Below, piece after piece: positions 5,790 through 57,871 of a DNA stretch of 64,000 bases. The first letter of the stretch is position 1. Each line of letters begins with the position of its first letter. The DNA comes from Duganella dendranthematis (GTDB taxonomy: Bacteria > Pseudomonadota > Gammaproteobacteria > Burkholderiales > Burkholderiaceae_D), in NCBI RefSeq assembly GCF_012849375.1, contig NZ_CP051684.1, positions 5,270,001 to 5,334,000 of the forward strand, written 5' to 3'. The notes beneath the pieces were generated by a model. That model saw nothing but the letters and a program-made list of their open reading frames with translations. It was not told the DNA's origin and did not search any database. The translations under genes were made by a program, and so were the position numbers.

Positions 5790-7415
5790 ATGCGATTAAC
5801 TGAATTGCCTATTGCAACCAAGCTGACAGCCTCATTCTGTGCGGTTTTGTCCATGACAGCCATCGTGGGTATCTTTTCAATAGTAGAGCTGTCACAAGTA
5901 AATGAAATATCGACACGATTATCTTCGCGCTGGTTACCAAGTGTGAGAATTATTGAGGATATTAAATCTCAAATAGCGCGAATACGCACGCGGGAGTTTC
6001 AATATATTATCTCCAGCGATGCCAGTGAGATGGATAAATACGATAAAGTCATCGCCACCGATCTGGATGATCTGAAAAAGATGCAGGATGAATATCAGGC
6101 GCTGATGGAAACGCCGGATGAGAAAGCCATGTATGCGCAAATTACCGAGCAGTGGGGGCGTTATATGGAGGAAGACGCTAAGATCCGCGCCGCCATGCGC
6201 GCCGGTGATGTGGAAAAAGCCAAGAAGCTGATCCGGGGCGACTCGAACAAGTTGATTGTCTCGATGCGCGGCCAGGTGGACAAGCTGGTCGACCTCTACA
6301 CCCAGGGCGGGAAGGACGCGGCGGCCGAAGGTTCCAAGCGCTACTCGTCGTCGCGGGTGCTGATTATTACGCTGATGCTGGTCAGCGTGGTGCTCGGTGC
6401 GGCCGGCGCCTTCCTGATCACGCGCCGCTTGATGCGCAGCCTGGGCGGCGAGCCGGCGTATGCGGTGGATATCGTCAACCGTATCGCGGCCGGCGATCTG
6501 TCGGCGCAGGTGGAGCTGCGGTCGGGCGATAGCCGCAGCCTGCTGTTCGCCATGAAGACCATGCGTGACAACCTGGCCAAGATCGTCACCGACGTGCGCG
6601 GCTCGACGCATGTGATTGCGTCGGCCTCCGGCCAGATCGCGGCCGGTAACCTGGACCTGTCCTCGCGCACCGAGCAGCAAGCCAGTTCGCTGGAAGAGAC
6701 GGCGGCGTCGATGGAAGAGTTGACGTCCACCGTACGGCAGAATTCCGACGCGGCGGCGCAGGCCAATCAGCTGGCCGGTTCGGCCTCCGACGTGGCGCAA
6801 GCGGGCAGCGAGGTGGTAGGCCGCGTGGTCAATACGATGGAGTCGATCAATGCGTCATCGCGCAAGATCGGCGACATCATCACCGTCATCGACGGTATCG
6901 CGTTTCAGACCAATATTCTGGCGTTGAACGCGGCGGTGGAGGCGGCGCGCGCGGGCGAGCAGGGACGCGGCTTTGCGGTGGTGGCGTCGGAAGTGCGCAA
7001 TCTGGCGCAGCGCTCGGCCGGCGCGGCGCGCGAGATCAAGGAGTTGATCGGCAATTCGGTCAGCCAGGTGGAGGAGGGCAGCAAGCTGGTGGCGGAAGCC
7101 GGCACCACGATGGAGCGCGTGGTCTCCAGCGTGCAGCGCGTGACTGATCTGATTTCCGAGATCACCAATGCGGGCCGCGAGCAAAGCCACGGCATCGAAC
7201 AGGTCAACCAGGCCATCGCGCAGATGGATACGGTGACGCAGCAGAATGCGGAACTGGTGCAGCAGGCAGCAACTGCGGCGCAGAGCATGCAGGAGCAGGC
7301 GTCGTCGCTGGCGGAGCTGGTCAGCGTGTTCCAGCTTGACTCGCACGAGGAAGGCGCGCTGCGGCGGCTGATGGCGCCCGCGCCACAGCCGCGCCGATTG
7401 TCCATGACAAAATAA
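5790..7415 (+). CDS. Methyl-accepting chemotaxis protein
   Basis: A 541-residue chemoreceptor. The transmembrane segments are about 12-33 and 189-210, flanking a helical periplasmic domain of the four-helix-bundle type. A HAMP linker follows (about 211-265). The cytoplasmic hairpin contains the highly conserved tip [21 protein letters not shown]. It would signal to CheA/CheW. The C-terminus ends RRLSMTK and lacks the Trp/Phe pentapeptide that tethers CheR. The N-terminal 70 codons are AT-richer than the rest. No other che gene is in the window. The LexA-controlled operon begins right after its stop. Confidence 0.93.
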
Positions 7416-7438
7416 GCTTTGTGGGAGGTTTGCTGATA

Positions 7439-7458
7439 TACTGTATGAAAATACAGTG
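7439..7458 (+). promoter_or_regulatory. LexA (SOS) box
   Basis: The sequence TACTGTATGAAAATACAGTG matches the LexA operator pattern CTGT-N8-ACAG exactly (CTGT 7441-7444, ACAG 7453-7456), with the flanking TA and AT-rich centre of the classical box. It lies between the chemoreceptor stop (7415) and the ATG at 7472. This predicts DNA-damage induction of the two repair genes that follow. It also decides the start of the first gene, because the in-frame starts at 7421 and 7445 would put the box inside the coding sequence. Confidence 0.85.
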
Positions 7459-7471
7459 TATCGGGAATGTG

Positions 7472-8704
7472 ATGGAGATCAAGGACAAGCTGGAAATCCT
7501 GGCCGATGCGGCTAAATACGACGCCTCGTGCGCCAGCAGTGGCGCGCCGAAGCGCGATTCCATCGGCAAGGGCGGTTTTGGCGCGACCACTGGCATGGGC
7601 ATCTGCCACAGCTACACGCCGGATGGACGCTGCGTCTCGCTGCTGAAAATCCTGCTGACCAATTACTGTTTGTACGATTGCCAGTATTGCGTGAACCGGC
7701 GTACCTCCAACGTGCCGCGTGCGCGCTTTGCGGTGGCGGAGGTGGTGCGGTTGACTACCGATTTTTATCTCCGCAATTACATTGATGGGCTCTTTCTCAG
7801 CTCGGGCATCATCCAGTCGGCTGATTACACCATGGAGCAACTGGTGCAGGTGGCGCGCGAACTGCGCGAAGTACATCAGTTTCGCGGCTATATCCATCTG
7901 AAGACCATCCCGGATGCCGATCCGGCGCTGATCGAGGCAGCGGGGCGCTATGCGGACCGGCTGAGCGTCAATATCGAGCTGCCGACGCAAGACAGCGTGC
8001 AGAAGCTGGCGCCGGAAAAGAGCGTTCATACGATCAAGCTGGCAATGGGTTCGATCCGCCGCAAGCTGGATGAGAAGGCGGAGGAACCGAAGTCGCCGCG
8101 CTTTGCGCCGGCCGGGCAAAGCACGCAGATGATCGTCGGCGCCGACGCCAGCGATGACCAGCAGATTTTGTCGACGGCGGAGACGCTGTACGGCAGCTAT
8201 AAACTCAAGCGCGTGTACTACTCGGCATTTAGCCCGATTCCGCAAAGTCCGAAGAGCGTGCCGCTGGCGCCACCGCCGATGATGCGCGAGCATCGGCTGT
8301 ATCAGGCGGACTTCCTGATGCGCAGCTATGGATTTCAGGCGCAGGAGTTGTTGCCGGACAGCGGTGGCAATCTGGCGCTGGATATCGATCCCAAGCTCGC
8401 ATGGGCGCTGGCGCATCGCGAGCATTTTCCATTGGACCTGAATCGTGCGGAGCCGCACATGATTGCGCGCGTGCCTGGCATAGGATTACGCAATGCGCAG
8501 CGCATCGTGGACTTGCGCCGCTTGCGGCAGGTGCGCTATGCGGACTTGTCGCGTTTGCGTTGCAGTATGAAGAAGATTTCGCCGTTCATCATCACGGCCG
8601 ATTATTTCCCGGCGCGCGACACCAGCCCGTCCGAGCATCTTCGGCGATCGATGGCGGAGGCGCCGCAGCAAATGAATTTGTGGCCGGAGTTGCAGGCAGC
8701 ATGA
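7472..8704 (+). CDS. Putative DNA modification/repair radical SAM protein
   Basis: A 410-residue radical SAM enzyme. The [4Fe-4S] motif is C66-x3-C70-x2-C73 (CLYDCQYC), preceded by a conserved stretch GKGGFGATTGMGICHSY. Near residues 328-362 there is a helix-hairpin-helix with VPGIGLRNAQRIVDL, a DNA-binding element. This is the family found next to uracil-DNA-glycosylase-like genes and named for that link; its reaction is not established. The start at ATG 7472 is supported by GGGA 5 bases upstream, by the LexA box just before it, and by the usual N-terminus of the family (KLEILADAAKYDASCASSG). Its stop overlaps the start of the glycosylase gene (ATGA), so the two are translationally coupled. 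Confidence 0.88.
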   Translation: MEIKDKLEILADAAKYDASCASSGAPKRDSIGKGGFGATTGMGICHSYTPDGRCVSLLKILLTNYCLYDCQYCVNRRTSNVPRARFAVAEVVRLTTDFYLRNYIDGLFLSSGIIQSADYTMEQLVQVARELREVHQFRGYIHLKTIPDADPALIEAAGRYADRLSVNIELPTQDSVQKLAPEKSVHTIKLAMGSIRRKLDEKAEEPKSPRFAPAGQSTQMIVGADASDDQQILSTAETLYGSYKLKRVYYSAFSPIPQSPKSVPLAPPPMMREHRLYQADFLMRSYGFQAQELLPDSGGNLALDIDPKLAWALAHREHFPLDLNRAEPHMIARVPGIGLRNAQRIVDLRRLRQVRYADLSRLRCSMKKISPFIITADYFPARDTSPSEHLRRSMAEAPQQMNLWPELQAA

Positions 8705-10140
8705 TACGCAAGGTGGTGCAGTCGTTTGACGAGTGGCGGACGGCGGTGCGGCAGTTGGTCGCGCAGCGCGTGCCGCCGGAGTCGGTGGAGTGGTCCGGCA
8801 GCGAGGATGAGGGTGATTTGTTCTCGTCCGCCGCCACGGCGCCCGCTTCCGACGCCGCCGCGCAGCCGGTCGCGTCGACGGCTGCGTTGCGTCTGCCGCG
8901 CGAACTGGTGGAGATGCTGGCTAGCGCGGCGTGCTTCAGTGCCGCCGACCGCTGGGCTTTTCTGTATAAGGTAGTCTGGCGCTGGCAGCTGGGCGAACGC
9001 GATGTGATCTCGGCGGCCGATCCGGATGGTGCGCGCCTGTACACCATGGTCAAAGCCGTCCGCCGCGAGGAGCACGACATGCATGCCTATGTACGATTCC
9101 GCGAACGTAACGAGGAAGATGGCGCGCCACGCTTCGTCGCCTGGTTCGAGCCGACGCACGAGGTGCTGCCACAAGTGGCACGGCACTTCGCCCGCCGCAT
9201 GGGCGACGCCACCTGGATGATCGCCACGCCCACCGCCACCGTGCTGTGGGACGGCCAGCAGTTGCACGACGCACCGCCCCGCATGCGCAGCGCCGCCGAC
9301 ATCGACGACGCCGGCGAAGCGCTGTGGCTCACCTATTATCGCAGCATCTTCAACCCGGCGCGCCTGAACGCCGATCTGCTGCGCAGCCATATCCCATCAC
9401 GCTTCTGGAAGAATCTGCCCGAAGGCGCCATCGTGCCGACCATGATCAGCGCCGCCGCCAACGGCGACCGCCGCACTGGCCAGACCATCACCGTCGGCCA
9501 GCGTAGCGGCGCCACCACCATCGCGGTAACGGCAGAACGCGCGCAACCGCAACGCGATCAACCGGCTACGCTGGACCAATGCCGCCGCTGCGAACTTTGG
9601 CGCAACGCCACCCAGGCCGTGCCTGGCGTCGGCCCGCGCAAGGCACGCATCATGCTGGTCGGCGAACAGCCGGGCGACCAGGAGGACCTGCAAGGATTGC
9701 CGTTTGTTGGTCCCGCCGGCGCGGTGCTGGACCGCGCGCTGGCCGAAGCGGGCGTAGTTCGCGACAGCGTCTACCTGACCAACGCCGTCAAGCACTTCAA
9801 GTGGGAACTGCGCGGCAAGCGTCGTCTGCACAAGACGCCGGCGCAGCGCGAAGTCAGCGCATGCCACGTCTGGCTGGAGCAGGAGCTGGAGAAGGTCGGT
9901 CCGGAAGTGGTGGTGGCGCTGGGCGCGACCGCATTAAAGTCGGTGCTGCAGGATGGCAGCGCGACGATGAGCGCCGTGATCGATGCGCCATTCCAGCATG
10001 AAGGTCGCTGGGTAGTAGCGGTCTACCACCCGTCCTTTGTGCTGCGCGCGCGGGATGAGGAAAGCCGCCGTCAGGCTTACGACGTGATTGTCGCAGGCCT
10101 GCGGCAAGCACTTACACTGGGGCCGGTTCGTTCCGATTGA
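8701..10140 (+). CDS. udgX: DUF4130-like domain fused to UdgX-type uracil-DNA glycosylase
   Basis: A 479-residue fusion. Residues 1-240 match the DUF4130-type domain that accompanies the radical SAM partner (WRWQLGERDV, RREEHDMHAYVRFRE, HFARRMGDATWMI). After a linker of about 45 residues comes a family 4-like uracil-DNA glycosylase: Fe-S cysteines C294 and C297 and a later C388, motif A GEQPGDQED (321-329), NAVKHFKW, the loop KRRLH (373-377) and motif B HPS (443-445). GEQPGDQED and KRR-x-H are the hallmarks of UdgX, whose loop His bonds covalently to the abasic site after uracil removal. H377 is present, so capture activity is predicted. The start is the ATG overlapping the previous stop; in-frame codons upstream to 8401 only overlap the radical SAM gene. 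Confidence 0.88.
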   Translation: MIRKVVQSFDEWRTAVRQLVAQRVPPESVEWSGSEDEGDLFSSAATAPASDAAAQPVASTAALRLPRELVEMLASAACFSAADRWAFLYKVVWRWQLGERDVISAADPDGARLYTMVKAVRREEHDMHAYVRFRERNEEDGAPRFVAWFEPTHEVLPQVARHFARRMGDATWMIATPTATVLWDGQQLHDAPPRMRSAADIDDAGEALWLTYYRSIFNPARLNADLLRSHIPSRFWKNLPEGAIVPTMISAAANGDRRTGQTITVGQRSGATTIAVTAERAQPQRDQPATLDQCRRCELWRNATQAVPGVGPRKARIMLVGEQPGDQEDLQGLPFVGPAGAVLDRALAEAGVVRDSVYLTNAVKHFKWELRGKRRLHKTPAQREVSACHVWLEQELEKVGPEVVVALGATALKSVLQDGSATMSAVIDAPFQHEGRWVVAVYHPSFVLRARDEESRRQAYDVIVAGLRQALTLGPVRSD

Positions 10141-56176: not shown

Positions 56177-57871
56177 TTATGCCGCCTCGGCGTGCTCCAC
56201 CAGCAGTTGCACTTTCGTCACGCCGTTGTACTCGTTGGCGTCCAGCCGGAACGCGACTTTGGCGCGGTCGCCCAGCGCGTCGGTGTGGCCGAACCAGATG
56301 GCGTCGTAGCGGGCGCCGTTTTTCTCCAGCAGTAGCTTGAGGTGGCGCTCTTTCAGAATGCGCTGGCTGACTACGCGGAAATCGTCGCAGAATACCGGCG
56401 GCGCAAAGCCTTGACCCCACACCTGGCCGGCCATCAGTTCGATGAAATTGGTGGTGTAATAGGCGTCTTCCAGCGGGCCGTCGGTTTCGACGACGCGTTC
56501 CAGCTGCTGCTTGCTGAGCCATGCGCGGCCGACTTCCTCGAAGGCCTTGGCGAAGGCGTCGAAAGCGTCGGCGCGCAGCGTCAGGCCGGCCGCCATCGCG
56601 TGACCGCCGAATTTGTCGATCAGCGACGGCGCCTTTTTATACACCAGGTCCAGCGCGTCGCGCAGGTGGAAGCCGGGAATCGAGCGGCCCGACCCTTTGA
56701 TCCAGCCATCCGCGCCGGGGGCGAAGGTAATGGTCGGGCGATAAAACTTCTCCTTCAGGCGCGAGGCGACGATGCCGATCACGCCCTGGTGCCAGGAGTC
56801 GTCGAACACGCAGATGGTGCTGCTCTCGGCCGGCTCGAAGGCGTCCAGGTGCAGCAGCGCCGCGTCCTGCATGTCGGCTTCGATCTCGCGCCGTTTCAAA
56901 TTGATTTCGTTAAGCTGCTGCGCCAGCTGCCATGCGCGGTCTTCATCGTCGGTGACCAGGCATTCGATCCCCAGCGACATATCTTCCAGCCGGCCGGCCG
57001 CGTTCAGGCGCGGGCCGAGCGCGAAGCCCAGATCGAACGGATTGGCGTTGCGTGGCTCGCGGCCGGCCACGCGGAACAGCGCCGCCACGCCGGCGTGCAT
57101 GCGGCCGGCGCGCATGCGCTTCAGGCCTTGCGCCACCAGGATGCGGTTGTTGGCATCCAGCTTGACCACGTCCGCCACAGTGCCCAGTGCCACCAGGTCG
57201 AGCATGTTGTCCAGCTTGGGCTGCGTCTGGGCGTCGAACACGCCGCGCTTGCGCAACTCGGCGCGCAAGGCCAGCAGCACATAGAACATCACGCCGACAC
57301 CGGCGATATGCTTGCTCGGGAAGCCGCACTCCGGCTGGTTGGGATTGACGATCACGCGCGCGGCGGGCAGGGTATCGGCCGGCAAGTGGTGATCGGTGAC
57401 TATCACTTCGATGCCGCGCCGGTTGGCTTCCGCCACGCCGTCGATGCTGGCGATGCCGTTGTCGACGGTGATGATGATGTCCGGCTGCTTTTCGCGCGCC
57501 GTCAGCTCGACGATTTCCGGCGTCAGGCCGTAACCGTACTCGAAGCGGTTCGGCACGATGAAGTCGATATCGGCACCCATCGCGCGCAGCCCGCGCAGCG
57601 CCACGGCGCAGGCGGTGGCGCCGTCGCAGTCGTAATCGGCCACGATCACCATGCGCTTGCGCGCGCCGATGGAGTCGGCCAGGAACACGGCGGCGGCGTC
57701 GATGTGCAGCAGGCCGGATGGCGGAATCATGGCTGCCAGTTCGCTGGACAGTTCTTTCGGATCGGTCAGGCCGCGCGCGGCGTACAGGCGCGCCAGCACT
57801 GGGTGGATGCCGTTCTGGCGCAGCATTTCGGATTCGCGGAACGGGATGTTGCGGGTGGCGATACGGGTCAT
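56177..57871 (-). CDS. recJ: Single-stranded-DNA-specific exonuclease RecJ
   Basis: A 564-residue DHH-family 5'-3' exonuclease. The metal motifs are VIVADYDCDGATA (about 82-94), DNGIAS, and VTDHHLPAD; the DHHA1 motif is GGHAMAAGLTL. It acts in RecF-type recombination and in base-excision and mismatch repair. ATG 57871 overlaps the upstream gene stop (ATGA). In-frame sequence further upstream only overlaps the RpfE-type gene. Confidence 0.96.
   Translation of the reverse strand: MTRIATRNIPFRESEMLRQNGIHPVLARLYAARGLTDPKELSSELAAMIPPSGLLHIDAAAVFLADSIGARKRMVIVADYDCDGATACAVALRGLRAMGADIDFIVPNRFEYGYGLTPEIVELTAREKQPDIIITVDNGIASIDGVAEANRRGIEVIVTDHHLPADTLPAARVIVNPNQPECGFPSKHIAGVGVMFYVLLALRAELRKRGVFDAQTQPKLDNMLDLVALGTVADVVKLDANNRILVAQGLKRMRAGRMHAGVAALFRVAGREPRNANPFDLGFALGPRLNAAGRLEDMSLGIECLVTDDEDRAWQLAQQLNEINLKRREIEADMQDAALLHLDAFEPAESSTICVFDDSWHQGVIGIVASRLKEKFYRPTITFAPGADGWIKGSGRSIPGFHLRDALDLVYKKAPSLIDKFGGHAMAAGLTLRADAFDAFAKAFEEVGRAWLSKQQLERVVETDGPLEDAYYTTNFIELMAGQVWGQGFAPPVFCDDFRVVSQRILKERHLKLLLEKNGARYDAIWFGHTDALGDRAKVAFRLDANEYNGVTKVQLLVEHAEAA

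Follow-up and report, generated by a model that had tools for sequence, protein, structure and literature searches.

A LexA-boxed radical SAM and DUF4130 gene pair with an optional UdgX domain in Duganella dendranthematis and its relatives

The locus described here raises the question of whether a radical SAM gene and the DUF4130-UdgX fusion gene behind it belong to the SOS response of Duganella dendranthematis, and which of the three parts (radical SAM protein, DUF4130, and UdgX) form the regulated unit. The window, which is the whole 64-kb stretch of DNA analysed (positions 5270001-5334000 of one 6.53-Mb contig), contains the two genes as a plus-strand operon (Table 1). Gene 1 scores 552.3 bits against TIGR03916 (rSAM_link_UDG; cut-off 343.5), and gene 2 scores 221 bits against TIGR03915/DUF4130 (cut-off 112.25) and 243 bits against the UdgX family TIGR03914 (cut-off 189.95). 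The start of gene 2 and the stop of gene 1 share the four bases ATGA, and the box ends 13 bases before the ATG of gene 1, so that both the gene overlap and the box position given in a preliminary description of this DNA are borne out by the coordinates and the sequence. Among the best 80 of 571 relatives, the nearest named one is Duganella margarita, whose radical SAM protein is 99% identical. The likely next gene downstream of the operon lies on the opposite strand and is weakly DUF4870-like.

Table 1. Positions of the operon, its box, and its protein domains and motifs in the window.
Feature	Position	Strand	Remarks
LexA (SOS) box TACTGTATGAAAATACAGTG	7439..7458	.	20 bp; core CTGT-N8-ACAG at 7441-7456
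Radical SAM gene (gene 1)	7472..8704	+	TIGR03916, 410 aa
Radical SAM motif C66-x3-C70-x2-C73	7667..7690	+	Cys in 168/168 rows
Helix-hairpin-helix motif, residues 321-351	8432..8524	+	HHH_3 20.7 bits, below cut-off
DUF4130-UdgX fusion gene (gene 2)	8701..10140	+	479 aa; TIGR03915 and TIGR03914
DUF4130 domain, residues 1-268	8701..9504	+	residues 1-205: predicted, possibly DHH/DHHA1-like fold
UdgX domain, residues 289-474	9565..10122	+	TIGR03914
UdgX R-loop KRRLH	9817..9831	+	from alignment; His aligned to MsmUdgX H109

The exact core CTGT-N8-ACAG occurs once in the 64-kb window. One-mismatch matches number 12 there versus 15.3 expected, which is chance level, and the exact site alone is thus informative within the window. 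In the whole genome, the longer form TACTGT-N8-ACAG gives 13 boxes, compared with one match of the backwards control. By NCBIfam assignment, the genes adjoining these boxes include lexA, dnaE2, imuA (twice), polB, and dinB, of which dnaE2 and polB were identified from pieces cut by the locus end, with scores below the whole-protein cut-off of the best-matching model. A PA0069-family radical SAM protein and an NAD kinase also adjoin such boxes (NCBIfam), and the former has no detectable similarity to the radical SAM protein of the operon (BLASTP E 1.1). The recA and ruvB genes of this genome have the variant box CTGTAT-N6-ACAG, and some boxes have no known SOS gene beside them. The box of the operon is a member of the LexA box set of its own genome.

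The conservation of the box was followed in 80 beta/gamma orthologue loci from Oxalobacteraceae, Caballeronia and kin, Cupriavidus, Bordetella, and Pseudomonas, a sample that leans to close kin since the best 80 of 571 relatives were taken. Within the stretch from 200 nt before the radical SAM gene to 20 nt inside it, the exact core is present in 76 of the 80, while three loci have one mismatch and one has two. The backwards control gives no exact core and three one-mismatch cores, and dinucleotide-shuffled upstream regions contain a mean of 0.2 exact cores (maximum 2 in 100 rounds). The 76 sites were picked by their exact half-sites, so the identity of the half-sites is no evidence and only the adjoining bases count. 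Pairwise identity reaches 0.97 and 0.92 at the adjoining TA, which was outside the selection, as against 0.28 in the upstream flank (6 to 30 bases away), and the spacers comprise 45 different sequences. This argues that the box is held by selection and not merely by recent descent. A search for the box before orthologues in relatives had been set beforehand as a check, and its outcome favours the SOS control proposed in the preliminary description, in close and distant kin alike. A chance match, with no SOS control of the operon in this strain, was rejected as an explanation on the orthologue, shuffle, and adjoining-TA evidence and is hardly credible, also in view of the 13 boxes of its own genome, even though no sigma-70-like promoter was found by consensus at 7350-7500.

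A wider sample comprised 398 genomes of the phylum. TIGR03916 is above its cut-off in 84 of them, or about a fifth (99 genomes have matches, and the 15 below the cut-off were left out), and in 34 of 116 genomes sampled from the family. The box was sought in 83 phylum loci, i.e., in all but that of the window itself. Within the same family and order, nine of ten loci have the exact CTGT-N8-ACAG core. In the same class, ten of 19 loci have the exact box, five have the one-mismatch form CTGT-N8-CCAG, and four have none. The 54 loci of other classes (nine families) contain no exact CTGT-N8-ACAG, and all 54 have an exact GTTC-N7-GTTC or its complement. The backwards GTTC control, in one orientation, matches none of the 54, and the mean over shuffles, scored in both orientations, is 0.5; the backwards CTGT control is exact in one of the 83 loci (L195). 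GTTC-N7-GTTC is given as the alphaproteobacterial LexA box in the available text of PMC8565304, and the label 'alphaproteobacterial' for the loci of other classes is taken from the motif. The replacement of CTGT-N8-ACAG by GTTC-N7-GTTC suggests that the operon stayed under LexA while LexA switched its motif. The putative SOS control is supported far beyond a single box.

The second part of the question, namely what is being regulated, is answered by co-occurrence. DUF4130 is above its cut-off in all 84 genomes with the radical SAM gene and in three of the 314 others (Fisher p 2e-83). In 81 of 83 loci, it lies at most 2.5 kb downstream of the radical SAM gene; the distance is about 3 kb in the remaining two (G343 and G355). 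A UDG is found in 60 of 83 of the fetched stretches, of which L083 stops within gene 1 and L169 and L215 stop before a UDG could show. Of the 84 radical SAM genomes, 63 have UdgX above its cut-off, as do 15 genomes with no radical SAM gene that reaches its own cut-off. Caulobacter vibrioides, a control genome, has matches to all three families. In the other 21 radical SAM genomes, UdgX stays below its cut-off genome-wide, and their operons have 14 exact boxes, five with one mismatch, and two with none. The family's own description reportedly also gives a UDG domain to only some of the DUF4130 partner proteins.

The converse was seen at 17 UdgX loci that lack the radical SAM and DUF4130 pair (13 in genomes without the radical SAM gene and four second copies; a DUF4130-UdgX-like locus above the UdgX cut-off, G434:C5, was left out of this count). 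No LexA box is present in 16 of the 17, and the idea that the box serves UdgX was rejected on this ground. The sole boxed locus, L244, contains a DUF4130 remnant with a stop, which gives it the look of a decayed operon. L242 and L243, both box-less UdgX loci, start with an apparent DUF4130-like tail. In the three DUF4130 loci from genomes without a radical SAM match, the box is kept in all three. Since the box follows the pair and is absent from nearly all pair-less UdgX loci, LexA control goes with the radical SAM protein and DUF4130. These two form the obligate unit, and UdgX is an optional accessory. Its loss is apparently traceable within Pseudomonas, where L121 has the intact fusion, L110 and L115 have altered R-loops, L105 has lost the histidine, L118 has a degenerate domain, and L103, L112, L114, L122, and L127 have no UdgX domain. 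All of these loci have the radical SAM gene, DUF4130, and the box, with one mismatch in the box of L112.

The radical SAM protein has TIGR03916 as its sole NCBIfam family at E ≤0.001, and its Pfam Radical_SAM score of 29.3 is just under the cut-off of 29.5. The alignments comprise 168 radical SAM, 135 UdgX, and 170 DUF4130 rows, which are not all independent since they were drawn from two overlapping locus sets (L118/L196, L107/L182, and L123/L206). A second invariant set, consisting of C20, C45, and C54 together with H46, lies outside the motif stretch and is present in 168 of 168 rows, and at 115 positions 166 or more of the 168 share one residue. The three extra cysteines may serve a second metal site or act as a hydrogen donor. 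The combination of a presence in about a fifth of the phylum genomes, near-invariant positions, and two cysteine sets suggests that this damage-linked enzyme carries out one specific reaction. The helix-hairpin-helix proposed in the preliminary description stands in part: the family profile matches that of the ComEA helix-hairpin-helix with E 0.00086 and weakly that of RuvA (E 0.13), but the Pfam scores (HHH_5 22.1, HHH_3 20.7) are below the cut-off of 27. Though weak, this C-terminal motif argues for DNA as the substrate. Sequence searches with the radical SAM protein found no relative in the PDB (two chance-level chains, E 0.37 and 0.98) or in the viral contigs scanned, and no match in PHROGs or to any SplB-type family model of NCBIfam.

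DUF4130 is much more variable. The radical SAM protein of the window is 46-49% identical to four distant homologues, while its DUF4130 partner is 18-24% identical. Seven positions (R132, F133, P151, F163, R166, I174, and R221) are identical in 170 of 170 sequences. The domain was folded alone, as the list for the full-length model of gene 2 was filled by UDG-type chains. The predicted fold of residues 1-205 possibly resembles PDB structures of the RecJ/Cdc45 (DHH) superfamily. In contrast to those DHH/DHHA1 proteins, it has neither the DHH triad nor profile support: no Asp-His-His occurs at the positions that at least 93% of the 170 sequences conserve, and a profile-profile comparison with 16 RecJ proteins (hhalign) gave a probability of 0.1%, against 0.1-0.2% for reversed controls. 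A search of the PDB with the DUF4130 profile gave only I-CreI-type chains with E 0.45 or worse.

The UdgX domain has the motifs GEQPGDQED (motif A), KRRLH (R-loop), and HPSFVLR (motif B). The cross-linking histidine of the R-loop is kept in 132 of the 135 fused UdgX domains, and in the available text of PMC10359453, its counterpart H109 of M. smegmatis UdgX forms the covalent link to DNA. This conserved histidine suggests that the same covalent capture chemistry may operate here. Unlike M. smegmatis UdgX (6ajo, 6iod; PMC10359453), the domain is fused here to the C-terminal end of DUF4130.

The TIGR03916 family presumably corresponds to COG4277. In the portion of PMC8565304 available, COG1573 and COG4277 genes form a two-gene operon that includes a UDG and is under SOS repressors in Bacteroidetes; it is cited as reported earlier in Verrucomicrobia and Alphaproteobacteria. 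It has UDG-type and COG4277 genes and SOS repressor control in common with the present operon, but it has other LexA-type motifs and, in the text seen, is framed as UDG repair, with no mention of DUF4130 or of an obligate pair. In Clostridium acetobutylicum, CAC3343-CAC3344, a radical SAM protein and an unknown protein, are a predicted LexA operon according to an excerpt of PMC3828012, and the second gene is probably a DUF4130 without a UDG. In a figure legend of PMC3765255, DUF4130 is a predicted enzyme related to mutagenesis that occurs in association with SplB-like radical SAM proteins and with UDGs. SplB-like radical SAM photolyases share radical SAM, an SOS context, and DNA repair with the operon, but its radical SAM protein matches only TIGR03916 in NCBIfam and has no detectable similarity to the PA0069-type protein of the genome. 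From the Bacteroidetes and Clostridium reports, it follows that SOS control of this operon type was already known. The damage-response role that the preliminary description drew from the LexA box is thus upheld by the wide conservation of the box, but it was not new, being already in print for other phyla; the operon is a real DNA-damage system that is already partly described. Unspecified radical SAM proteins that may or may not be TIGR03916 occur in LexA regulons (PMC7739468, PMC9380542). A co-mention of LexA and radical SAM in PMC5554334 was discarded, as the radical SAM protein there is NirJ. One Caulobacter paper, in the part available, names four UDG-family genes and gives no SOS link for them; two others mention neither radical SAM nor uracil. 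Searches of open-licence papers, which were not directed at each of these points, yielded no demonstration of SOS control for the operon in Burkholderiales or Pseudomonas, no split between boxed pairs and box-less UdgX, no DHH-like DUF4130 fold, and no reaction assignment for the TIGR03916 enzyme.

In the SOS response, RecA causes the self-cleavage of LexA, which derepresses LexA-controlled operons. Radical SAM enzymes generate a 5'-deoxyadenosyl radical, and UdgX links covalently to DNA. The favoured reading, which is rather probable, is that of a LexA-repressed operon in which the radical SAM protein and DUF4130 form a core that processes lesions on single-stranded DNA, with UdgX as an accessory. 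LexA would repress the operon through the box, and from what is known of the SOS response, RecA-triggered self-cleavage would switch it on. The core would be the obligate pair seen in the co-occurrence, DUF4130 with its highly constrained radical SAM enzyme. The C-terminal helix-hairpin-helix may hold the enzyme on DNA, and the 5'-deoxyadenosyl radical would then process a damaged base or sugar in single-stranded or gapped DNA. To judge from its predicted fold, DUF4130 could hold the strand as a catalytically dead module of the RecJ/Cdc45 kind. The UdgX tail would covalently cap uracil-derived abasic sites on the same DNA, and the core could work without it. A bolder version is tentative and rather doubtful: DUF4130 would be a miniaturised, dead RecJ/Cdc45-type protein that forms with the radical SAM enzyme an SOS-induced single-stranded-DNA machine at stalled forks, repairing lesions in place by radical chemistry, and UdgX would be a separable abasic-site cap that is being lost in Pseudomonas. 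If true, radical-based direct DNA repair would have a third kind, unlike photolyases and SplB.

The claim of the preliminary description that all three domains treat one lesion together finds no support, in that form, in the distribution of UdgX. In its sequential version, for example with UdgX excising and capturing a base altered by the radical enzyme, it is unlikely. It would account for the fusion of UdgX in most operons (60 of 83 loci, next to 81 of 83 for DUF4130) and for the conserved catalytic residues of UdgX, but UdgX stays below its cut-off in 21 of the 84 radical SAM genomes, 19 of which still have an exact or one-mismatch box, and it occurs in 15 genomes where no radical SAM gene reaches the cut-off. 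Less likely still is a role of the radical SAM protein as a maturase of DUF4130, with the matured DUF4130 then doing the repair. The obligate pairing and the far better conservation of the enzyme than of its partner speak for this reading, yet the helix-hairpin-helix of the enzyme, weak as it is, points to DNA, and none of the residues identical in all 170 DUF4130 sequences is a Cys, Ser, Thr, Tyr, Lys, or Asp that would be a candidate modification site.

An SOS-controlled pair that makes or removes a programmed DNA modification, in a restriction-like or anti-phage role, is very improbable. The family name 'putative DNA modification/repair' and homologues on 158 plasmid records speak for it, but the regulation is of the repair-gene type and neither protein contains a restriction or methyltransferase family. 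A defence system was rejected as a candidate since both proteins are without a match among 5027 PADLOC models.

The distribution data narrow the question: the damage-response unit is the radical SAM protein and DUF4130 and not UdgX, so that the minimal pair, such as the versions without UdgX in Pseudomonas, is the one with which to look for the substrate. Single-stranded DNA is suggested as a place to look by the possible RecJ/Cdc45-like fold. In the available part of PMC13130816, a protein bearing the name of this operon type is increased at 8% humidity in Acinetobacter.

Variant LexA boxes accompany the radical SAM-DUF4130 operon in some relatives. The Bordetella operon (L126) has CTGG-N8-CCAG upstream, and some Pseudomonas-like operons (L112, L200, and L215-L218) have CTGT-N8-CCAG. 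Three operons of one family in the same class (f17; L172, L173, and L177) carry no recognised LexA box. They have in common two conserved inverted repeats, TCTCATCCAATGAGA and GGTTTCC-N5-GGAAACC, which lie before and across the start codon and are possibly another operator. The alphaproteobacterial box GTTC-N7-GTTC and DUF4130 are kept together in three further genomes (L259, L260, and L261), with UdgX over the cut-off in two of them; the family search of these genomes gave no radical SAM match in any of the three.

The genome of D. dendranthematis has a second SOS-linked radical SAM gene, whose PA0069-family product (490.8 bits) is encoded beside a palindromic LexA box (L001). Comparison of this protein with the radical SAM protein of the window's operon detected no similarity. 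The same genome contains two ImuA genes (L004 and L009), each with a LexA box beside it, and may therefore have two ImuA-linked mutagenesis cassettes. The genome's recJ lies in the same window as the operon, which is probably a coincidence.

In L222, a contig from the gut that is recorded as Bacteriophage sp., a gene for a LexA-like repressor (HTH and Peptidase S24) is directly upstream of a radical SAM-DUF4130 pair, which suggests local damage control at this locus. The record 'Acinetobacter phage MD-2021a' (L220, CAKLQH020000003.1) carries the pair with glyS, glyQ, and aidB close by; it appears to be a bacterial contig that was deposited under a phage name. In L219, the pair is followed by a gene for a DEAD_2/Helicase_C_2 helicase of the DinG/XPD type.

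Coordinates of the features discussed
Feature	Location	Strand
recJ	window 56195-57805 (G000:C1:5326195-5327805)	-
Palindromic LexA box, PA0069-family gene	L001, G000:C1:421623-421642	
LexA-like repressor gene	L222 303-932	
DinG/XPD-type helicase gene	L219 6094-8475
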